Shown here: piece after piece, positions 2,187 through 60,548 of the stretch
How positions within the stretch are numbered: the stretch's first letter is position 1
Layout: each line of letters begins with the position of its first letter
The notes under the pieces: model-generated
What the model was told of the DNA's origin: nothing
The model's database searches: none
Seen by the model: only the letters and a program-made list of their open reading frames with translations
Made by a program: the position numbers and the translations under genes
Source: Daphnia pulex
Taxonomy: Eukaryota > Arthropoda > Branchiopoda > Diplostraca > Daphniidae
Direction of reading: 5' to 3'
Assembly (NCBI RefSeq): GCF_021134715.1
Contig: NC_060024.1
Span: forward strand, 12,152,001 to 12,216,000
DNA: 64,000 nt

Positions 2187-5100
2187 TAGGAACAATTCAT
2201 CATTATTCTTCCTTTTTGACCATCTCTTGGCGTTGATTAATTGATAATCGTATTCCGTAACGATTATTCCTGAGCTAGGCGATTCACTGGAATTGTTTTC
2301 TCTGACCATTTTTGTAAACTCAGTAAGGTTTTTTTTTTTTTAACAACTCATTTGTTGAACAAATGCAGATTAGGCCTGTTTTTGTATCTCACAACTTTGT
2401 CTGTGGGTGAAAATCTTTTTACCAAGAGGGTCACCTTTGCCCGGCACCTTCTCATACGAAAGGTGATGCTATTTCCGATGAAAATCAACTTTTAAATCCG
2501 AATGATGTTTATCGATAACTCACAGATGTTCCTCACTTATCGTGAGGGCCACGTGCTGTCTCTACTTCGTTATACCATTGCACCCCTCCCTCTTTTTTGC
2601 ACGAAGTACAGAATCTATGGTAAATCAATCGAATGAAATGCGGATGCATTTCCGAGTGTAGCATCTACACAGACAGGCACATAAAGCTCTTCTTTCCCCC
2701 CTCTCTCTATCCTGTCTCTCCTCGTCGTGTATAGCCCACCGTGATTGGATTTGATCGAGTTATGTGTGTGTGTGTGTGTGACCTCCCTCCCCCCTTTTTT
2801 TATTCATTTATTTTCTTTCGTGAGAAAAAGAGACGGGAGAAAGAAATGCGCAGATGGATTCTATATCCAGCTGGACTGGTTCCTTCTGTGTCCTCCCCGT
2901 ATACATCTAGGACTCTTTAAAGAGACTCTTCTGCATAATCCAGCCATAGATATTAAAGAGGACCCCTTCGCCCCACCCAGAGAGTCTCTCGCCTATCTCA
3001 AATCACAGTGGAAACTCTCTCTCTCTCTCTCTATTCTATAACCGAGTTCTTTCAGCAGAGTCTGTCTCCCTTCTTCCCGTCGAGCTCAGGATCCATGAAT
3101 AATATATTCAGCCTATAACGACGTTATCAAAGTTGATGATTGAACATGTAAGCGAATCCGGCGGCAGGCGACTGCTGCTATACATAGAATTGTCCGTAAA
3201 CGGATTGATGATATAAACAGTGCGGAATCAAAGACATCCAGCGGATGCCTATGCCACCGCCGTCACTGCTGCTGCTGCTGACGTCCATTCCATTGGTTTG
3301 GAAAAAAAAGTTACTGCATTTTCCCTCCGCACCGGACAGTCATTGAGAGAGAGAGAGGATTATGTATATACTCTCCCGAGTCTAACAACTCAGATATAGT
3401 CATCAAGGCTCTGATGTGGCTGACTTCATTGGCGGTCTATGTGTATAGCCTGCAGTTGTACAAGCACAGATCTATAATAATACGTATGTAGGTAAACTAA
3501 ATAATATTACGAGAGAAGAAAAGAAGTAGTAAGAAATCCAGCGGATTTGGTGTACCGAGCAGTCTATATAGATAGAGAGTAGATGTGATACTATACTACT
3601 ACTTCTACACAGGGTGCGCTGTCTCTATTCATCGACTAACCCACCGCGACTTGGGAATTAATCAAGCGTAGGATCAATAGAAACATATACACACAGCACA
3701 CACCCGTGTCTGTTTGATGAAACGGAGTATATACGTATATATGTCTGTTTGTATACGATCGGAATTGGAAGAGAAGTTGAGATGGAATTTCGACGACGAC
3801 GACGCTGTGCTGTAGGTCATTAAAAGAGGATCAAAAGGAATAGTCAAGTTGCCGTCCTCCTCCCCATTTAATATACCAAAGTCAGTTGCGCTGCGAAAAG
3901 CTGCTGCTGGGAATCCCTATCCCAAAAAATCCGATGCGGAGGTTTTTGCTTGTTGCCCGCCCGTTCTCCAGCTCAGTCCGTAATCGGTTGGTTGCAATAT
4001 AAAGTGACATCAGTCGTGGATGACCCAATGAACCGGCGGCAGTGGGTAGGGAGGGAGAGAGTCGCCTAGTAAACACGAAACCAACGTTTCAAAATCTTGT
4101 TTTTTCTTCTTTTATTTCTTCTTTTGCCATTGCCAGCAGCGCCGAACCGATATTGCTTTTCGTCGTCTTTTAAGAAGTTGTCCAACCGTATCACGCGAGT
4201 CCAAATATGACTTGTCAAACTTGACTCACATCTCTCCACACACTTCTTTTGATTTTCTCCCTGCATCGTCGTCTTCTTCTCTATCTCGCGAGCCACAGAA
4301 ATGAGCTGAGATTTGAATTTTCTATTTGCATGGATTTCTCGTGTTTGTTCTTTGATTTCTCAACGAATGAAAAGGGTGGGGGGAAGAATAGCTGATCTGG
4401 CGTCTTAGCTGAAAAAGAATAAAAGGGAGCATCTAATAAATCAAATTCATCGCTGATGGTTTCCATCACTAGGGGCATTGCCCCCGCGACTTATCTCCTC
4501 ATCATCACCGGGCGACACACACTGTTCAAACTAAACGAGAGATAATAAATCCCAATTTAGCACAGGACGCAGACACGAAAAGTCCCGCTCGGCTTATCGA
4601 TTCAATCAAGCGCGTGAATAATAATAATAAAAAAAACCCACAACAGCAGAATCTTCTCTCTCTCTCTGTGCGCTGGCGTTATATTATCAGGTGGCTCTAA
4701 AGTCCGCAAAGGCTCTTTTTATGTCTGTGTGAACATCCAATAAGTTTCGATGTATATCCCTGCTCCGCCCTCCCGCGCTCTGATGTCCTTTCAAGTCCCG
4801 AAATTGGAATTCGACTTGCAAAGGCGCAAGAAGCTGATGGCTGATGTAGCATCTATTACGACGATGGCACTCTCAGACATTTATACACTTGCCTATCAAG
4901 AAAAAAAAGCTTATACAAGGACGGGTGGGGGGGGGGGACAGAAAAAAAAGACGTTTGTTATTTGAACGGATGGTTACACAATACGGTTGGCTGCTGACGC
5001 CCTTTTTCGAACCTTCTTTTCTCCCAATAGCTTCTCGGGTCTTTAAGGAGAAGTAGCGCACTTTGAATTTGTATACACAGGCTCATACAGGATAGTACTT

Positions 5101-8100
5101 AAGTGTGTATATACTATCCTTTCGCCTGATTTCGTTCACACAGATCTCATCTCTCTCTCTAGCATGTCAACTATATCGAGGGAGGGAGGAAAAAAGACAC
5201 CCTCAAAATCCTTTGGCTCTTTTTACTTCTTTTCCTCTCATTCCCGATCGGTCCCGCCAGTAACAGGACTGTCGTTTAAATACTTACATTCTCAACAGGA
5301 TGATGGCGCTCACTAGAGTGTGTGTGTAGAGCGTCTTAGAATCAGCAGAGAGAGCTACACACAGTAGATATAGTCGAATGTGTTTGGTTTGTGCCCGAGA
5401 GGAAGTTCCCAAAATAAATTGAAACGGATCACACAAAAATAAAAACTAAAATGAGGAAAAGGAAGAAATAGTTGACAATACTTGTATAGTTTATACGCTC
5501 TCATTCTCGCCGAAGGCCAGCCCTATATACGTGTCTATAAGTTTTGATATGCTCGGCATGGTTGTCCTGTGACTCTATTCAAATGTTTGTCCCGCGTTTT
5601 TGCCTTTTGCCGCCGCCTGCCGCGTTTGAACAGAAGAATCTTCGTGATGCCTCGATGGAGCCATTGTCAAGTTGCCAATCTTTTGCCATCGCCAGCACAA
5701 ATCAGAGAGAGAGAGGCCCAGCAGGTTGAGTTTCTATTTCAAGTGTCAGCCACTTTTTCCCCCCTCTGCGTGTGTGTGTTCTACACCGGCGCTTAGATTC
5801 TTCTCTTGTCGACGTTGACCCCATTATTTTGACAGACGTTGGACCTTGATATTATACCCTCGCGCTGGTTATTCATTCCGTAAAGAAATGTACGATAATC
5901 TGGTGAAATCATAATCTCGACTACATTTTTTTGGCTGCTGGCAATTTTATACGCGCTCAGCAGCTAGAAAAGTCGAAATCAAATCTTGATGGAAATGTAT
6001 CAAATACGTTCATGCCAAAAGGTTACGTATTCCACGACAACATTTTCGTATTATTTATAGAGAAAAAAGAATGAAAGAAAGAAGCTATTCCCTGCTACAT
6101 ATAGTAGAGTAAAGCAGGACCAGAAGGACGTGCCTGCTTCGTTGGGTCTAATCTGATTTATATCAAGGATTTTTCCATCCATACATACACACACATATCC
6201 ATATCCCTTTTCCACTATTTTTGTATTCTCTTTTTTGGGATTTTTTTTCGCTTCCTTTTGGGATGTTGGACGGCCGGAGAAAAGAGATGCGCGTTATTTA
6301 ATCAATCCGACCGAGGGGCCAGCAGCAACGGCGGTTGGTCTTGGAACACGATATTTCGATTGCGCTAGCATTTTTTTCTTGATTTCTTTTCTTCTTTATA
6401 TATGATATATCTATATGGCACATTTCATGAAGAAGGAAGTAAAGGACACACAGTCTTATTCCTTGCGGCTACAGAACATATTACTCGGCATATACGGGTG
6501 ATATGGAGCCCAGCGTGGGCGTGTGGTATTTATGATTATTACATGTGTATATACTGCACCTAATTTAGGCTTCCTAAATGCCCCGTGGTCTGTGTGTGCC
6601 AGTCCGACTTATATATTTTGTCGGCGGCCAATCATCTGAGGTTTCGTCCCCAAGGGCAGGTATAGGCATCACACACTCGTCTCTCTTTTTTTCGTTACGT
6701 GTTATTTTATTTGCAAGTTCTTTTAATATGTCAAAGCGGTGAGTCCTCTCTCTCTCTGCCGCAGCATCAGTAAAGCACCACGCCCTATAATATAGCCCCC
6801 CTCCTTCCTCCATGATATGATATATTGGCTCGACAATCTGATGACACGCATTCCATGTCAACATTGACTGTGAGAGAGCCGGATATTGCTGACCGCCGAT
6901 AGCTATTAAATACAACCGGGGTTATAACATCGTGTCCTCCACATACATACCACCCAAAACATGACACACACACACACTCACATCACACAGTGAGACGGGA
7001 AATCTCTCTGCGCAGCAGGATATGTCTCGTGATGCTGGTTATGGTTATTCTCTTTTTAGTTCCACTGCAGTGAACCTTTTTTTTCTACTTTTCCCCACAT
7101 CGCTTCTGTGGTGAGGTACCGCCAGGAGCTTAAATACATTGGCCCGATATCATTCCCGTTTTGGTCTGTGCTGTGTCATATCAAATGCTTTATTGTATAT
7201 ATGGGAAACAGTAATATAATATTGAAAGCAAACAGCCCATATAAGAGAGATAGAGAGAGAAGGACAAGGGTTTGGCGGGCAACTAGAGAAGAAAATCCAG
7301 CAAATCTATGTAACGCCAGAAGCGAAGAGCGTCAGGCAGTTATATAAATATATATACGGCAGTATATGCTACGGTGGGTAATAATGGCTATGGCTTTTTT
7401 TGAAAGGAAATAAATACACTTTTTTGGGAGACTTTATGGACGGTCGTATAACGAGGCCATAACAGCAGTTCCGCCAGGCGTTATATAGGTATTAGCAAAG
7501 CGCGCTTTTGATGTGTTGGCGACCGAGCGAGATGATGGTTATGGCCGTTCAAAGCTACACCGTTGCTGCATCTATCCCTTTTTCTCTCTTGAGTATAGCT
7601 CCTGCGATTCCATAACACGTCGGACCACCTCCCATGTTTTACGACACGCGTTCATCCCTCTCTAACGGTTCACCCCCAAACAATATAAGGACACATCCGA
7701 CGACGTCCGCCAACCATCAAGAGACGACACACTCTCTCTCTCGACTCTATATGGGGCGAGCGGAATTATTTAAACGCCACATCAGTCAGGCTCTCCCCCA
7801 AAAAGCGACCAAGTTCCATACGTGTTATGGTCGAGTTGACAGGATTAAGGGATTCCTTTATCAATTATACCTTTTTTGTGTGTGTGTGGAATGTTTTTTT
7901 ATTTCTTTGTTGGATGGGTGGGTGGCTGGGAGGTCTGACATATCACCTGAAAAGCTACGGATGGCGCGGGGCGTGTCAAGTACTAATCAGCAGTTTTGGT
8001 ATTAATTGTGTAATTTGGTTGTAACTATAATAATACGTAGCTCGGTATTTGAATGTGTCGCCTCTCTGAATATTTATTGGATAATATATTGGTGACGACA

Positions 8101-12390: not shown

Positions 12391-15300
12391 ATGACCAAAG
12401 CCTTTTGTCTCTTCGCCATCACGTTGTTTTTGGCCAATGTTTTTTCGGTGAGTTTAATATTTCAACTGGTTTTTAGCAGAAACCCAACGGAGTAATGTTT
12501 TTTTAAAAATTTATGATTATGTATAAATCAGACTGACGTTCCAGCGGATGATGTGAACGATGCCGTCGAACATGGGCTGGCCCAGGTGGAGTCCATGTTG
12601 GATCTGGAACGCCAGTTGTTGGAAAAAGGGCTAACGGTTGACCGCGGGAGTTCGGCTCATCTCCACTCGCTGATGGTGGCCGCCTCTGGATCGGAGCAAC
12701 AAAAAGAATCCGCCCTGAACGCAGCCCGAATTCTGGCAGCCTCAACTCGTTTGAAAAACAAGTACGTATACTCTCAGCTTCTATATCTAAGAGTGAATAT
12801 ATGTGCAGACTTGTTATGCAGTCGACATCATCATTTCTCTATTGTAAACATCAACTTTACAATAGAAGCTGAGCATCAGTAGATGTGTACATTTGTAGAA
12901 ATGGAATAGATATTCTCAACACCTTGGGCAAAGAAAAGCCTTTTTTTCGATTAGAGAGCACGGTGAAGCACAAAAATAAAGTGCAATAGCGTAAAAGTGT
13001 GTGTGTGTGTGTGTGTCTGTGTGTAAGAATCGGGACTCATTTTTTAGTTGTTCCATCTTCTTGAAATAACAATCGATTCCGGGAGGGAACTTCTTTTTCA
13101 CTCCCGGAAGACATTTTGTGGATCAACACGGATGTTTTTTTTTAGGGGGCGGGGGGCAAAACACAAGTGATGAATCGATTCGCTTATGGATTGTGCTTGT
13201 ACTGTTTGTATATATAGATTGAACTGGAGCGCAGACGAGGCCCGACGCTCCCTACCTTTATTATCGTTAGATAACACGGCCCTGAAGAATTCCTGCCCCG
13301 AGTCCATCACCTGTCCATCAGCCGCCACCCTAAAGTACCGACCGATCGACGGCTCCTGCCACAACCTCGCCCGTCCCGACTGGGGCAAAGCAAACACGCC
13401 CTTTCAACGGGCATTGCCCAACGCCTATGCTGACGGTTAGTTTTTTTCCATGTTGCATGTTGTTCGTAACGTTTGGCAAACAAACCGCTCCGCTGGTGAT
13501 GAATTGATCGCCGGCTTGTTTGACAGTTCTTAATGATCGATTCAATCTTATATCCTGTGTGCATGTTTTCTGCTGCGCAATTCAGGGGTTTTTGAACCGA
13601 GGAATTCTTCCACCGAGCTCAAAAGTCCACGAGCCGTCAGCACTACGTTCATCAAGCCGGGCCTAACGACCGCAGCCGATTTCACTTTAATGTTGATGAC
13701 ATGGGGACAATTCATCACGCACGATCTCACCAAAGCTTCATCTTTTACTTCAGGTTATTCTTGCATTGGCCGCAACGGCATCACCGATATTGCAATCTTT
13801 TCTGTTCATCATGAAATGTTTTTTTTTTTTTTTTTTTTTATATTCAGCCGACGGCAAGACCCCTCAGTGTTGCAACGCTACCAGTGGACAACCACTGAAT
13901 CCAGACCTCCTTCACCCGTTTTGTTTGCCGATCGACATTCCGGCGAACGACACTTTTTACAGCCAGCACGGCCAGGCTTGCATGCAGTTCGTCCGGACTC
14001 AAATCGGAGCCGATTATGCCTGCACACTTGGACACGCTGAACAGGTAAAAAGCCAATTGCTCAAGTCAACCCTGATCATCTTTGCTAATTATTTTGTAAA
14101 CAGTTGAACAGCATCACCCATTGGCTAGACGGTTCCATGATCTACGGAAGCTCTTCATCCGAGCTGAATAATTTGCGACTTGGACAAGGAGGTGAACTGA
14201 AGAATTCGACCACTTCCGACGGCATGGAATTACTACCTCTGGCACCTAGCTGCTCAGACGCCACTTGTTATTACGCTGGTAATTGATTAATTATATAAGC
14301 AGTTAAGCACTCTGCCGAATAGTTTTATTCATTTTGCCTTTTCTCAGGTGACGTAAGGGCTCAGGAGAATCCGCAGCTGGCCATCGTTCACACTGTGATG
14401 ATGCGAGAGCACAACCGCATCGCCAGAGCGCTTAAACTACTCAATCCTCTGTGGACTGAAGAGGTTCTTTTCCAGGAGACTCGGCGCATTGTCATTGCAG
14501 AACTACATCACATTACCTACACCGAGTACCTGCCTGCCATGTTGGGTAAACACTGCCGCTTATTATTTCACAAGTCGATAGGTGTACACAAGGTAGGAGA
14601 TAGGACTCCATATAAATATGAACCTTTTCGTCCCAACAGGCGAACAGGCCATGAGGGACTACAACTTAAATCCAGCCGCCGTGGATACTTTCGCTACGTA
14701 CGACGAAACAACTGCCAAAGATCCGTCGATTTGGAACGAATTTGCTGCTTCAGTCTTCCGTGTTGGACATTCCCAAGTCCAGGGAACTTTAGTGTAATTA
14801 GCGAACTTAACTATCTCAATAACTATTGGGTCTCATTGCGTCTTTTACCTTGCAGACTTTACGACGCCAACGACGTACAGGATCAAACATTTACGCTGAG
14901 CAGTTACTTTTTTGACGCTTCTAAGCTGCCTGAACCGGGTTTCATCGACAGCGCCATCCGAGGTCTAACGAAACAAATGCCGCTCGCCGTCAACGCCGAG
15001 TACACTTCCCAGTTGACCAATTACCTATTCAAGTGAGTTTTCCCATGACGACAAATCCTACATATAGTCTAATGAAATAAAATAACACGGACAAAACAAC
15101 ACAGAGGGTCAAATCCCTACGGCATGGATCTGGTGGCACTCAATGTCCAGCGTGGCAGGGAACACGGGATCCCAGACTACAACACTGTCCGCGCCTTCTG
15201 CGGCTTGCCAAAAGCCAGTACCTTCGACGACCTGATTAACGAAATCGACCAAGCGGTATTACTAATATAAAGTTTGAATTTTCGCGCCACTATTTCAAAC

Positions 15301-34307: not shown

Positions 34308-36288
34308 TCAAGGCAGATCCTCCAGGGCTTCCTTGACATGTTTCCAAGTTTGCAGACCCTGTAACATTCCAAAACGGAGGTGAGGCCAAATACAATACTT
34401 GTTACATTTATTTACGAGATATTTGTCCTTTTTCACGGGCTCACCCTTAAATTAAAGTACGATCTATTTTTCCAAGAATCAAAAATTCGATTGAAACATA
34501 CCATTTTGGACAATTTCATTTGAAGGATGACGTAATTGGCCAACGATTCCTGAAGATTTGCGTTTTTGTGCTGGTGGAAGCGCTCCACCTCATTAACGGC
34601 TTGCTTGGAAAACTGACTGTGTAATTAAAGAAAGTGCACCGTTAGATTTTTCTAACGACTTGAAAGGAATTAAGTTACACAAGTAAAAATATGCCTACCT
34701 AAGCTGGGTAGACGCTGTTTGTACTAGTACTTGAGCTTCGTCAATATTACGCTCGATTGTTTCGATTTTTGCCTGGCGATCATCTGGTGTTTCCGTTGTT
34801 CCAGTCCATTTCCCCCAAAGCTTGGTGAGATAACCATCCTGTCCCAGCGATCTGCTTTTGTTGTACTGCTGCAAATTCAGGTGCGATTCGGCTTTCTCGA
34901 CCTCAAGTTGAGCCATTTGGTGCCGGCTGCTAAGTCCTTGCAATGCATTACCAAAGAAAAGATATTCTTTCAGCTGATCTGCAACAATATCTTCCTCTTC
35001 CATGTGTGCGTCAATAGCTGCAGCGTAACAATCCATATAATGCCCAGCTTTCTGCAGGAATTTGATCAAAAAATTTCCAAATTCAAATCTGAAATAGTTT
35101 TAAGCATTTCAATACCTGCAAACCATCTCCCATTGTTTTCTCTAAGGCACTCCACTCACTAAAAACTCTTCCATAATTAGCATGTAGCTTGTGGATAGCA
35201 AAGAGTCGATCGGCTAGACGGACGCGAAGCCTTAACAGGTTCCCCAAACTTGACTAAAAGTAGTAAACAATCAAGTTATATTACCAACGACAGCCAACTA
35301 GCTTTTGCCCAGACACAAAACTACCTGTAGTTCTGAACTGTAATGGCGAATTTCTTCCATGTGATCATCGGGTTTTTTCAATCTCAAAGCGGTGCTGATA
35401 GATTTCAATTTGAACTCTGCTTGCTGAACATATTTCCCGCCATCTGCATTAACGTCGAGATCTGACCACTCGCGATCTGATTGAAGAAACTTGAGCAAGA
35501 CTTGGTCGTGGCATAAAATGGGATGGGCGGCAACACGCAAGAGGAAGTTCTAGGTAATTGTATAATGACTCACAAATATTGTTCTTGAATAAAATTTAGA
35601 TGAAATACCTCCAATCCTACTCTTCGACGATCAACAAATACAGGATCAATATTATCACTGCTTTGACTTTGGCGAGTGAATGACGCCTTTTTTTCAGGTA
35701 GAGGTGGGATAATTGCTTCAGGATACTTGTTCTCTAGTTGGAACCTCAGTAATTCGAACTCACTGTAGCGTCTCCAAACTGACCCAGTAGGGGAAAGCCC
35801 TCCTCTCCAGTTCTTATCAGTGGCCCTATTAAAAATAAAGCTTTATTAGAATACTATAAAAAGAGAACAATTTTAAAATAATACTTTGTTTCAATGAGAT
35901 AAACTGAATAGTATTCTTTCAAAGTTAGTGGACCATTAATTCGCTTTTCCGCTTCTACAATGCTTATATCCAAATGGTGAAGAAGCACATCCTAGAAAGG
36001 AAATCTTATTAATATTTGCATTTAAAGTGTTGATCCACATTTGAGACAATGATACAAATTGGGGTAATTTCCATTCCATCAAAGTAAGACAAATTCACTG
36101 AAATGAATATTTTGATTTCTACCAAATGTTATAAACCTATGAAAAACGAAAACAATGTTTCAGCTTACTTCTTTTCCGATCAAAATGTTTTCCTTTTTCC
36201 CGTTTGTTTCAGTTACCAGGTTTTTAATCTCTTTGCTATCCACTTCCTCCCAGTTATTTGAGACAATGTTAGAAGAAGACGATTGCAT
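34308..36288 (-). CDS. Snx4: Sorting nexin 4, 441 aa
   Basis: PX-BAR sorting nexin that binds PI3P on early endosomes and promotes recycling and autophagy-related traffic. Exons: 36169-36288, 35885-35991, 35609-35825, 35325-35549, 35116-35253, 34699-35051, 34502-34616, 34308-34358; phases all agree. The PX domain occupies about residues 40-150, beginning LLHHLDISIVEAEKRI with LKEYYSVYLIETK, and has the PI3P-binding SVWRRYSEFE motif (RRYSEF at 94-99) and the PPLPEKK proline loop. FLLRVAAHPILCHD follows, then the BAR region with LRLKKPDDHMEEIRHYSSEL, RLADRLFAIHKLHANYGRVF, EWSALEKTMGDGLQ, AGHYMDCYAAAID and ADQLKEYLFF. Length is close to the family norm (about 450). It is transcribed divergently from the selenoprotein gene. 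Confidence 0.95.
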
Positions 36289-36651: not shown

Positions 36652-37075
36652 ATGGTGAAGATTAATATTGAATATTGGTATGTTACTATGTTTTAGTTAA
36701 GTAGTTTTCTTTCTTCACAAATATTTGATTATTATGTTTGTACAGCGGTGGGTGAGGGTATGGTCCCCGCTACGGGGAGCTTGCTGGAATGATTCGGCAA
36801 AAAGTTCCCTCTGCGGAGATTGAAGGCCACATTGGACGAAGAAGTATTAAATATCTAACTTATATATGTTGACAAATGCAAGTTATTTAATATTTTTTTG
36901 AATTTCTACAGCTTCGTTTGAGGTGACTGTGGATGATCAATTGATCCACTCCAAACTGAGCACAAATTCCTTTCCAGATTTTGAAGAGGTTGCTAGTATT
37001 GTGCAATCAGTCGCTGAGGGATCTAAGCCTCAGCAAGTAACGAAGACCCAATCTGCTGGATGCAACATCCTGTAG
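36652..37075 (+). CDS. SelW/MIEN1-type selenoprotein with in-frame UGA, 95 aa
   Basis: Thioredoxin-like Rdx-family protein (selenoprotein W / MIEN1 group). Exons: 36652-36677, 36746-36843 and 36912-37075. The N-terminus MVKINIEYCGG is followed by TGA at 36753-36755, then GYGPRYGELAGMIRQKVP. The UGA falls exactly at the second redox position of the CxxU motif (Cys9-Gly-Gly-Sec12), so it reads as selenocysteine rather than stop. The rest follows the family: EIEGHIGRR, SFEVTVDDQLIHSKLST, FPDFEEV. The protein ends CNIL, a CaaX box of the kind that allows prenylation in MIEN1. A candidate SECIS lies in the 3' UTR. Conventional annotation would truncate the gene at the UGA or start it after it. A vertebrate SELENOW2-like or MIEN1-like ortholog is likeliest. 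Confidence 0.9.
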
Positions 37076-37121
37076 ACACCCTTTTACCATGGCAATGAAT
37101 TTGGTTAGATTAAACATTTAC

Positions 37122-37187
37122 TGCTCACTTATGAAATGGACTCTTTGAAGCACTTTCGTGTTGGTGTCTGTTGATTTTTCTTGAGCT
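37122..37187 (+). promoter_or_regulatory. Candidate SECIS element in selenoprotein 3' UTR
   Basis: Features fit a eukaryotic SECIS. The lower stem GCTCA (37123-37127) pairs with TGAGC (37182-37186). The non-Watson-Crick quartet is ATGA (37131-37134) opposite TGAT (37172-37175). An unpaired AA (37148-37149) lies 13 bases above the quartet. Between them a helix can form using GGAC with GTCT. It sits 46 bases after the stop codon. Pairing was judged by eye only. Confidence 0.65.
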
Positions 37188-37225
37188 TGTATCTGATGCT
37201 ATCTGCAAATTCATGTATATGGAAT

Positions 37226-37231
37226 AATAAA
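37226..37231 (+). terminator. Polyadenylation signal of the selenoprotein gene
   Basis: AATAAA about 150 bases after the stop codon and 40 bases beyond the candidate SECIS, so the SECIS would be kept in the mature mRNA. Confidence 0.7.
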
Positions 37232-46103: not shown

Positions 46104-48172
46104 ATGCAGGTAAAACGCAATTACTTATTTGATTAAATTTAAATCTGGAAATGTGAAATTTCTAACATCTTTTATAATTATATGGTGTTGTATTTTCATA
46201 GGAACAAAATATTCCTATCGACATTCAGACCTCAAAGCTACTTGATTGGGTGATAAGTCGACGACATTGTACAAAAACATGGCCTCAACAGATCACTCTG
46301 GTTCGTGAAAAAATTAATTCTGCTATTCAGGATATGCCAGAACACAAAGGAATCACTAAGCTTTTGACAGGAACTTGTAAGGATCTAGAGTTTTTATTTT
46401 AATCATTTTTTCTTATAAACTTTGCCTAGGCCTATAGATATTTTTCAATCGGGTCATGCTTTACAGATATTAACTACTTTCACTGCCTCCAAATTGTTGA
46501 AATATTGAAAGAAACTGAAGCCGATACTAGAAGCTTATTTGGTCGTTATGGCTCCCAGAGAATGAAAGATTGGCAAGAAGTTGTTCGTTTGTATGAAAAG
46601 GATAATGTATATCTCGCAGAAGCTGCCCAAATTCTGATGAGAAATGTGGCCTATGAGATACCTGGAATTAAAAAATCCATAACAAAATATGAGCAAGTTC
46701 AACATGTAAGTTGGTATTAAGGTAAAAGTTTTAGTGCACACTTTCAACTTTTTTCTTGTAATCAGGAATCTGAAAAGAAAGAAAATGAATGTGTAAAGAA
46801 TGCACAAGATTTTAGGGATAAGTACAAGTCTCTTTCAAATCAACTTGGTATTGAAGGGAAAAACATCAAGAATGAGTTGGCTGATCTACTTTGCAGTTTA
46901 CCTGAGATGTACAAAGATGTGGCTCAACAAGGAAGAAAAACAAAGGAGGCTGCTGGTAGATATAATCCATAACATTTTTAGTAAATATTTATTTAATATC
47001 CTTTTTCAAATAGCTTTTTATCGAGAATTCCTTGGACAGATGATTACCGGTAACAGCGAAGTCTCATGTCTTCCGGTGTTGCAGTACATCATTGGTAAGA
47101 AATCATTTTTTTTTTAATTTTGTAAACGTAATTGTAATTTAAATGAGAAATCTCTAGAAAATGGCAATACTACTGTGTACGAGTGGCGTTATGGCGAACC
47201 TCCTTTGCGCATTGAAGAACCCTCAGTTTTGGTAGCTGAACCCGAGGCCCCCACTACGACTGATGATGCTGTAATATGAATTTTTTATAAATAAAATTAT
47301 GTAGTTAAAATTAATCGATCATTTCCGAACAGATTGACTTTGGAGATGCAGCTATTGACTTTGGAAGCGATGACGTGGAATTGGAAACCGGAGATATTGA
47401 CTGGGGACAAATCGACATGCTTCCAGATGCCCACGAAGCAACGATAGATTTTTCGACAACCGAAGATGCCGAATTGGGAATTGTCGTCCAGGAAGCCGGT
47501 GTTGAAGGCGGAGTGGCTAGAGATATTGAAGCTCTGACGGTTTTGGACTATCACAAAACTAGAAATATGTTTATCGACGATCTTGTAGAGGTGAAATTTC
47601 TTATAAATTACCCTCATCAAATAACCATTTCTGATCGATTTCTTCTGAATTTAGTTGGAAGCTTTCTTGAAGCAACGTCTAATGGAAATTCAAGCAACTT
47701 CCAAAGAGTCCAAGGGTTTCAGTTTCACACAGACACACTCCAGCACCGAAAAGTCTCCCCAACAACTCGAAGAGATGCTCAGCCAAGTGTTGAGTACGAT
47801 CGATGCTATAAACCGGCCGAAATTGAAAAATTTAGCTCTTATTCGGGAATCACCAAGGTAATTTCTGAAATGGCTGTAGCTTGTTTTAATTGATACATGT
47901 TTCAGACTGTTTGACGTGATTGGTTTAGGTACGTTGATCGCGTAGCGAATTCTTTGCAACAGCACTTGCGATTGGCCGACAAGATGGAGGCAAATCGAAC
48001 GATTTTAGCCGAGAGGCGCCGTTCTGCTGCAGCCGAACAGGTCGGTCTCCAACCGACTTTAAAGAAGCTGATTGAACGCACTAAAGAGTTGCAGGCAGAC
48101 CTCGAGAAAAACATTTCCAAGAAATATAACAATAGGCCCGTTCATATCACCGGTGGTGTCACCTCCCTCTGA
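46104..48172 (+). CDS. Cdk5rap3: CDK5RAP3, UFM1 ligase partner, 502 aa
   Basis: CDK5 regulatory subunit-associated protein 3, a partner of UFL1 and DDRGK1 in UFMylation at the ER and ribosome. Nine exons: 46104-46109, 46202-46376, 46467-46705, 46766-46955, 47014-47094, 47158-47270, 47333-47590, 47655-47857, 47929-48172. The start is MQEQNIPIDIQTSKLLDWVI, with the family's P-I-D-I and KLLDWL block. Further signatures are RRHCTKTW, FGRYGSQRMKDWQEVVRLYE, NVYLAEAAQILMRNVAYEIP, FYREFLGQM, the acidic repeats IDFGDAAIDFG and GDIDWG (the UFIM/shuffled LIR-like W/F motifs of the family), LTVLDYHKTRNMFIDDLVEL and the C-terminal coiled coil RVANSLQQHLRLADKMEANR. It ends GGVTSL. Length matches the human protein (about 506). 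Confidence 0.95.
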
Positions 48173-57866: not shown

Positions 57867-60548
57867 AGCGTCAGCGTCAGTAGGTCCAGCTTCGTCCACC
57901 AACGGAAACGTCCGAGGAGAACAAGACGATCCTAATCCGAATCACCAACTCTCACCGTCTGCCGGTGGTGGCAGTTCGAGCGGCGGAAGTTCCGGTCCGT
58001 TGCACATTCCGGCTAAAAGACTGGCGGTCGGTCAGACAGCGGCCGGTCCCGGAGCCTCATCCTATCCGGGACATCACACCCATCATCACGTGACTCATTC
58101 TCATCACGATCCAAACAGCGGAGGAGGCGGAGGCAGCGGCGGAGGCGGCGGAGGAGGTGGAATCAACGGCGACTCGAGCGGAACCAGCAGTCTACTAAGA
58201 GCCCAGCCTTGGCCGTACAGCGTTGGTGACGTCCAGGGTCATTCGGCCGGCTCGTTCGATCCTCAGTCGTACAGTCCCAGTTCGTTGGTACGCGACGGAA
58301 TGGCCGCAGCAGCTGCAGCCGCCTATTACGGCGCCGATCGGGCCAAAGCGGCGCTCAGTTTCTGGCCCAGCGACTACGGCAAATACGGGGCGGCCGCGGC
58401 GGCCGCCGCTGCCGGTCAAGGACCTTCAGCCGGTCTCCCCACCTCGGCCGAAGCGGCCGCTGCCAACGCCCAGTTCAACGCCCAAGCCGCTTGGTGCGGT
58501 TACGCCGGATACGGCGGACGCGTTCCCGAACCTCACGGGCATCCAGGACTCGGTCCGACTCCTGGACAACCTGGAATGGGCGTACCTGTGTCGGTGGCCG
58601 GTTATCTGGCCGCCGAAGCTCACGAAGCTCGTCGCGGCGCCATGGACGCCGCTGCCGCCGCCGCCTGCGGCTTCACCCACGACAGTTACGCCGGACTGCG
58701 AGGCTACGGACCCGGTCCCGATGGCATGCCGCCAAGCGTCTACGGCCCTGGTAAGTTTCTTTCAATTCCACAACCAATTGCAAAGTGGGCTGACAGAAGT
58801 TGAGAGTGTTTTGTGTGTGAATAGACGGCCCTTTTTCTCCCCACCCCACTCTTGTGCAACAGTAATGGGAAGTTCCAGTAGAGTAGAAATGGCACTCCCC
58901 TCATTCATATAATACTTGTCGTCGATGAAGGCCAAAAGGGCCTATCGATGTTTCTCATATCCGATCCACACCGCTCACTAGATGGAGTCGGTTGGTCCGA
59001 TAATATTAGGAGCTCAATGATGTCGTCGTCGTTGACGTCGTTTCTCATACTACGCACAGTATATATTGTAGAAAACTATGGCGCCGGGTGTACATATATA
59101 CAAACGCTTCCTTTTTTCTTCGAATCGTTGCATCACAAGTGCCTGCCAGACCGACAGTGACGAGGGGGAGGCTCTGGAGGGACGCCAAAAAGCTTCTTCT
59201 TCTTTACTTACGTTCGCCCAGCACATATAGGGTGGGGGGGGGGGGGAAGCGACAAACATTGAGGGGTTGCTTCACTTACCGTCTCTCCCCTCCAGCTCTC
59301 AAATAAACGACTATTTATCGATTGCATTCAGTCGATTCTGTTCAGAGCTTGTCCATTGATTTCCTCATTCGACACGGCCGTGTGTAATAGACACAAATCA
59401 TATCTTTCAAGCAACAGAGTCGACTTGTTTTTCTTCTTCTGAAATATATAACTAAATCCCCCGAAATCTTTTGAGATTAAGAGATAGAAAAGGAGCTGTA
59501 TTATGTTGAGTGCATTGTTGGGTTTAGAAGACAAGAGCCGCAAGTCTGAAACGAAAGGGGAGAGAGAAGAATTCCTCAGGTACTTGGTGGGAGGGAGAGA
59601 GTGCTGGATGAAAAAGTCAAAGTGATATTTCAATCGAGGTTAAAGTACCTGCGACTATATGTTCTAGAGTGAAACAATCGGTGGATATATACATCGGAAA
59701 CAAAACTGTTGAAAAGAAAAGTTAAGAAAGAAAAAAGGTTTAGACCAGATGTGATTTGACGGGGGCGGGTTGGGTTGAAAGAAAAGTTTCTGTTTTTCCT
59801 TGGTAACTTAACTCACCGAGGTGAAAGACTATTGGCTCTCATCAACCAAGAGGGGGAAGAAAAATGGGGAAAAAAAAAGTTCTTGTACTCTTCTCTTTTC
59901 GCCATTACCATACACGTCTAGCTCTTGCTAGCTAGATGGTAGGATCCCCCTTTTTTCCTCGTCATAAAGAATCCGGCGCATGTTTTTAACCCTCTCACCC
60001 CCTTGAGCTACGAAACCCCTTCAAAAAATTGTTCATTTCGTCCCTGCCTATATATTTCTCACGATGTCTTTATTTTCGTTCATGGAAATCTTATTCTTAT
60101 TATTTATTTATTTATTTCGCCAGGTTCTTTAGGGCCGAATCCGCTGGAATGGACGGGCCAAGTGACGGTGCGCAAGAAGCGGAAACCTTACTCGAAATTC
60201 CAGACGCTGGAGCTGGAAAAGGAGTTCCTGTTCAACGCCTACGTTTCCAAGCAGAAACGCTGGGAGCTGGCGCGCAATCTCAACCTGACGGAGCGTCAAG
60301 TCAAGATCTGGTTCCAGAACCGGCGGATGAAGAACAAGAAGAACAGCCAGAGGCAACAGGCCGGTGGCAACAGCAGCAACAACAGCGGCGGAGGCAATGC
60401 TAATGCTAACGCCAATGCCCATCACAACAGCAGCCATCATCACCATCATCATCATCACGGCCCGCCCGACGGTCACCACCACCATCACGCCGGACCCATC
60501 GGGCCCGTTGTCCACAACGGCGTTCACAACATTTGCTCGGCCAAGTGA
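57718..60548 (+). CDS. Abd-B: Abdominal-B homeodomain protein, 485 aa
   Basis: Hox transcription factor of the posterior class that specifies posterior body segments and genitalia. Two coding exons, 57718-58750 and 60124-60548, join in phase (G|GT). The ATG is the first Met in this frame after an in-frame TAG at 57604. The N-terminal half has a run of about 22 Gln (mixed CAA/CAG), Gly- and His-rich tracts, and Ala runs interspersed with conserved pieces such as [10 protein letters not shown] and [10 protein letters not shown]. Exon 2 begins [20 protein letters not shown]; the PLEWTG tryptophan motif and the homeodomain (about 361-421; [19 protein letters not shown], helix 3 [15 protein letters not shown]) are diagnostic of Abd-B. 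A His-rich C-terminus (eight consecutive His, then five) follows. The intron is 1373 bp. Its position at one end of the window, pointing away from unrelated housekeeping genes, fits the edge of a Hox cluster. Confidence 0.97.
58751..60123 (+). other. Abd-B: Abd-B intron between N-terminal and homeobox exons
   Basis: Donor G|GTAAGT at 58751 and acceptor TTTCGCCAG ending at 60123. Contains a long G run near 59230-59246. No coding or RNA gene was recognised within it. Confidence 0.85.

Follow-up and report, generated by a model that had tools for sequence, protein, structure and literature searches.

A Daphnia pulex gene of the SelW2/MIEN1 type with an in-frame UGA predicted to encode selenocysteine

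We analyzed a 64,000-nucleotide stretch of the Daphnia pulex genome (contig NC_060024.1, positions 12,152,001 to 12,216,000; hereafter the window, which is C8:12152001-12216000 in the 133.19-Mb, 13-contig genome that we searched) and found in it a three-exon gene with a TGA codon at the second redox position of a C-G-G-U motif. We propose that this is a selenocysteine (Sec)-containing SelW2/Rdx12 (MIEN1-type) gene in which UGA is read as Sec, and we put the probability of this reading at roughly 0.9. Sec is the simpler reading because the TGA stands at the CxxU position, a candidate selenocysteine insertion sequence (SECIS) follows the coding region, and candidates for the Sec pathway are present in the genome.

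Results

The gene lies on the plus strand (Table 1), and reading of the sequence together with a splicing test gives two introns that run from GT to AG and a 95-residue product, MVKINIEYCGGUGYGPRYGELAGMIRQKVPSAEIEGHIGRRTSFEVTVDDQLIHSKLSTNSFPDFEEVASIVQSVAEGSKPQQVTKTQSAGCNIL. When five alternative ends of exon 2 were tried (36841-36845), only 36843 produced one frame reaching the C-terminal CNIL and stop, with the TGA as the sole internal stop. Five AG sites occur 3' of the TGA within exon 2, four of which shift the frame while the fifth is located 2 bases before the exon end. The first-pass annotation, made by a model from the DNA letters, had described an in-frame TGA flanked on both sides by SelW/MIEN1 family sequence, a call that is correct to the base and is borne out by a Pfam Rdx match spanning residues 3-73 of the spliced protein. 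The CNIL end that it named, a CaaX-type tail, is read directly as residues 92-95. Neither a second copy nor a Cys-encoding copy of the gene was listed in the genome searches, as the protein search returned no more than two of the gene's three exons and the DNA search returned only the gene itself.

We observed strong agreement between the spliced protein and the Rdx family, with Pfam scores of 69.8 bits when residue 12 was entered as C and 62.6 bits when it was entered as X (cut-off 22.6), and an NCBIfam CXXU_selWTH (TIGR02174) score of 68.7 bits (cut-off 34.2). The best match in a phmmer search of the PDB was human MIEN1 (2LJK; 53.8 bits, 87 residues without gaps), and in this alignment residue 12 falls on the second Cys of the MIEN1 redox site, which agrees with the earlier claim that the TGA encodes the second redox residue. 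Mouse SelW (2NPB) scored 28.4 bits in a gapped alignment. As judged from these phmmer bit scores, which compare a single representative per branch, and from the likeness of the CNIL tail to the CVIL tail of MIEN1, sequence comparison places the gene in the SelW2/Rdx12/MIEN1 branch. The original assignment to a SelW/MIEN1 family thus stands at the level of Rdx and is narrowed to SelW2/Rdx12, nearer to MIEN1 than to SelW.

The alternative that survives best leaves Sec decoding as it is and changes only the branch, making the gene an orthologue of SelW1 (SELENOW). The active site, C-G-G-U-G-Y, does resemble the G-A-C-G-Y of the SelW chain, and the Rdx search of the genome listed three matches (the window gene plus a SelT-like and a SelH-like gene, described below), with no separate SelW1 among them. 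Nevertheless, the score and gap-free alignment favor MIEN1, and the CaaX tail resembles that of MIEN1, while the alignment with SelW stops at query residue 67, before the tail. We therefore consider a SelW1 orthologue improbable and retain placement in the SelW2/MIEN1 branch.

The 3' untranslated region (UTR) contains a SECIS-like element. The ATGA, AA and TGAT core and the GCTCA/TGAGC stem that had been proposed as a SECIS were all found in place, with helix strands at 37123-37127 (GCTCA) and 37182-37186 (TGAGC), a quartet formed by ATGA (37131-37134) and TGAT (37172-37175), and AA at 37148-37149. When the 3' UTR was run against a SECIS model, as the first-pass annotation had advised, the Infernal-type Rfam model SECIS_1 gave the element an E-value of 0.024 (1,101 bases, both strands, 4,227 Rfam families). 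When the 156-nt UTR was shuffled 20,000 times with its dinucleotide content preserved, 12 of the shuffled sequences matched the SECIS pattern equally well. Across 239,290 bases of genome (both strands, 14 sequence sources, 2 of them overlapping others) there were two equally good pattern sites, the window element itself and a SECIS_1 match behind a GPx-like gene. In a scan that combined pattern and energy (at least 6 pairs, total energy at or below -10, TGA required on the 3' side), the UTR site had the best total energy of the seven window sites printed.

Several observations weigh against this element being a functional SECIS. Its 25.3 bits fall below the Rfam gathering score of 35 for SECIS_1, and an Rfam scan of the whole window at gathering scores listed nothing, SECIS included. 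A whole-window scan with E-values up to 10 also contained no SECIS_1 row, though the scaled E-value of the element would be about 1.4, and a whole-genome SECIS_1 search, in which 133 of 2,653 candidates were scored, did not return the window element, both of its listed sites being located behind GPx-like genes. The unconstrained fold of 37105-37215 was only mildly stable (z = -1.33; matched in stability by 17 of 200 shuffles) and contained helix I but placed helix II in a different register. Finally, the quartet and the AA lie 13 bases apart, compared to 12 in the one GPx SECIS that the pattern scan found.

We attribute the missing row in the whole-window scan to stricter filters on longer input. 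The SECIS_1 matches behind the two GPx-like genes likewise score below the gathering score (30.5 and 29.5 bits), and the model thus seems to give Daphnia elements too low a score. The pattern scan recovered one of the two GPx SECIS elements and, among the sites printed, none at the SelT-, SelH- or SPS2-like genes, where Rfam did not find a SECIS either. As Rfam listed a SECIS for three of six Sec-type genes, the window gene included, the absence of a match is uninformative here.

Two further genes of the same genome share the CxxU active site. A SelT-like gene encodes C-S-S-U (spliced CSSUGYRKVFEQY; Rdx 19.1 bits) and a SelH-like gene encodes C-K-S-U (spliced CKSUSVFKRKA; Rdx 18.9 bits), in each case with TGA at the U. 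In all three Rdx genes found in the genome (the window gene, SelT-like at L026 and SelH-like at L027), the codon for the first Cys of the CxxU is interrupted after TG by a phase-2 intron. The Rdx matches of the SelT-like and SelH-like genes are weak, under the cut-off, and motif recognition puts these two genes in subfamilies other than that of the window gene. The labels SelT, SelH, GPx and SPS2 as used here are based on such recognition.

These genes bear on whether the TGA could be an ordinary stop mutation, with the gene undergoing decay or its product truncated. A simple pseudogene could be expected to have just such a stop at codon 12. However, the TGA is the only in-frame stop, no damage is seen in the introns, the frame or the C-terminal motif, the UTR carries a SECIS-like element, and the SelT-like and SelH-like genes also carry TGA at the same redox position, which together leave a pseudogene with very little to recommend it.

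We also searched the genome for the machinery that Sec insertion would need. Every one of the 14 control genomes also gives matches in the tRNA-Sec and SelD searches, and these exceed the cut-off in 5 genomes for tRNA-Sec and in 2 for SelD; we therefore counted only matches that were over the cut-off or were read by eye. The genome search with Infernal identified two tRNA-Sec genes over the cut-off (63.1 and 61.2 bits), which differ at two T-arm positions that pair with each other; ARAGORN reported no tRNA in either locus. This pair agrees with the published account of D. pulex, which, in the text available to us, describes two intron-bearing tRNA-Sec genes and 16 selenoproteins (PMC5330540).

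The remaining components were recovered as candidates. Two pieces of eEFSec domain III, both above the cut-off, were located at C12:5.11 Mb, and a third match at another site scored too low to pass. An SBP2-type L7Ae domain was found at C5:7487001 (36% identity, E = 1.1e-17) with a single query sequence, a match that does not tell SBP2 from an SBP2-like paralogue. SepSecS matched over the cut-off at C10:13.73 Mb; its longest matched stretch, read regardless of introns, contains two stops. PSTK, at C6:1.98 Mb, was matched in pieces (96.9 bits, below the full-length cut-off of 382). The best piece of a selenophosphate synthetase (SPS) gene at C7:5.605 Mb scored 81.9 bits, below the full-length cut-off of 125, and its frame reads DLKG-TGA-GCKLPQ; we take this TGA to be the Sec site of SPS2, so the gene is probably SPS2.

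The first-pass annotation had named a 3' UTR without a SECIS score, in a genome lacking tRNA-Sec and SBP2, as grounds for giving up the selenoprotein; instead, the UTR scores, albeit below the gathering score, and two tRNA-Sec genes, an SBP2-type domain and candidates for eEFSec, SPS2, SepSecS and PSTK are present. SECIS-independent readthrough that inserts a standard amino acid at the UGA is hardly credible, as the CxxU position, the SECIS candidate and the Sec-pathway candidates favor Sec.

The tRNA-Sec search gave 26 matches, 24 of them under the cut-off. Six of the latter were examined (L003-L008), and at each matched site we found a tRNA-Ser inside a tRNA cluster. These clusters, on C5 and C9, contain Ser, Gln, Met, Arg, Lys and some His tRNAs on both strands, for the most part in a repeat of ~1.3 kb. 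Further matches under the cut-off occur on C12 and C2.

Other features of the window include a minus-strand open reading frame (ORF) at 36022-36288, from a list in which TGA was read through; it has its ATG at 36288, points away from the selenoprotein gene and could be the first exon of a head-to-head neighbor. ORFs at 14395-15036 and 47375-47893 match an animal haem peroxidase domain (100.3 bits) and CDK5RAP3 (38.1 bits), respectively. A homeodomain ORF at 60003-60548 (73.4 bits) looks to us like Abdominal-B, and for this reason the window may reach the posterior end of the Hox cluster at its right edge.

Table 1. Features of the Sec-type gene in the window and of related loci elsewhere in the genome
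Feature	Location	Strand	Remarks
Exon 1 (coding)	36652..36677	+	ATG at 36652; ends within the Cys9 codon (TG|C), phase 2
Intron 1	36678..36745	+	GT..AG; lies within the codon for the first Cys of CxxU
Exon 2 (coding)	36746..36843	+	Holds the TGA
TGA	36753..36755	+	Codon 12, in C-G-G-U; predicted selenocysteine; corresponds to the second redox Cys of MIEN1 in the alignment
Intron 2	36844..36911	+	GT..AG
Exon 3 (coding)	36912..37075	+	Stop at 37073-37075; ends C-N-I-L-stop, CaaX-type tail
SECIS candidate	37122..37187	+	Rfam RF00031 (SECIS_1), 25.3 bits; AA in the internal loop beneath the apical mini-hairpin
AATAAA	37226..37231	+	Probable poly(A) signal, 3' of the SECIS candidate; direct reading
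Tandem GPx-like genes (n=2)	L028:3549-6481		TGA at the Sec site: NVASNUG at 3549, NVASKUG at 5597
SECIS_1 matches downstream of GPx-like genes	L028:4381-4446 and L028:6416-6481		30.5 bits and 29.5 bits
tRNA-Sec genes	L001:1501-1611 and L002:1501-1602		Anticodon-loop insertions (introns) of 25 and 16 bases

Discussion

From these data we propose how the gene may work. The SECIS in the 3' UTR of the mRNA would recruit SBP2 and eEFSec with Sec-tRNA-Sec, and the UGA at codon 12 would be decoded as Sec and not as a stop. Translation through this codon would give a thioredoxin-like protein of 95 residues whose redox site is C-G-G-U. In its CNIL tail, Cys92 would probably be geranylgeranylated by geranylgeranyltransferase I (GGTase-I), a prediction from the motif that follows published reports on the CVIL tail of MIEN1, and the prenylated tail would anchor the protein to a membrane with the redox site on the cytosolic side. 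There the CGGU could serve as a thiol/selenol redox switch, as has been proposed for MIEN1.

Human MIEN1 (also Rdx12 or C17orf37) is the closest of the known proteins that we compared. The portions of the literature available to us, here and below, describe its CVIL end as a prenylated CaaX tail of the GGTase-I type and propose a redox switch near the membrane (PMC3527542), and prenylation of this tail is also described in PMC6738349. The tails of both proteins end in IL. MIEN1 differs from the window protein in having Cys in place of Sec, the only form that mammals retain, and in its longer N-terminus, as the alignment starts at chain residue 25. Mouse SelW belongs to the Rdx family and has its redox site in the same place, but its alignment, unlike that of MIEN1, has a lower score and gaps.

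SelW2 is known as a Sec protein in bony fishes (SelW2a/b/c), frog and elephant shark, with Rdx12 as its Cys relative (PMC3316567), and in Ciona (PMC2874816). SelW2 selenoproteins are also described for flatworms (planarian and Schistosoma), and a SelW2 gene is named for Trichoplax, in a paper that mentions Lottia SelW2 in one figure legend only, at odds with its own text (all PMC3828610). As described, these proteins share with the window protein a Sec in the CxxU, an Rdx-type domain and membership in the SelW2/Rdx12 branch, a likeness drawn from their published descriptions; they are from non-arthropod animals, in contrast to the window gene. The account of 16 D. pulex selenoproteins does not name SelW2 in the text that we examined (PMC5330540), and D. 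pulex is also covered in PMC2500217. We did not find a paper on the window gene in a literature search whose scope excluded supplements and most subscription journals. The gene adds a member to a known family and is perhaps already in a published table. The first-pass annotation had regarded retention of a selenoprotein in an arthropod as informative; it is less surprising than claimed, since both SelW2 selenoproteins and selenoproteins of Daphnia have been published.

We also advance, tentatively and as a possibility that we would not favor outright, a broader proposal. The membrane-tethered MIEN1 redox switch of Daphnia would be a true selenoenzyme, the sole SelW-type protein that we found, and would have kept an ancestral Sec that tetrapod MIEN1 has lost; in addition, the phase-2 intron in the CxxU of SelW2, SelT and SelH would predate their split.

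Standard annotation would tend to cut the window gene at codon 12. As a predicted selenoprotein, it extends the SelW2/MIEN1 branch by a Sec form from an arthropod and fits the view that Sec is ancestral in this branch and the Cys of tetrapod MIEN1 derived. If the product is a prenylated selenoprotein, Daphnia would offer a lab-friendly animal in which to study how Sec and Cys differ in their contribution to MIEN1-type signaling.
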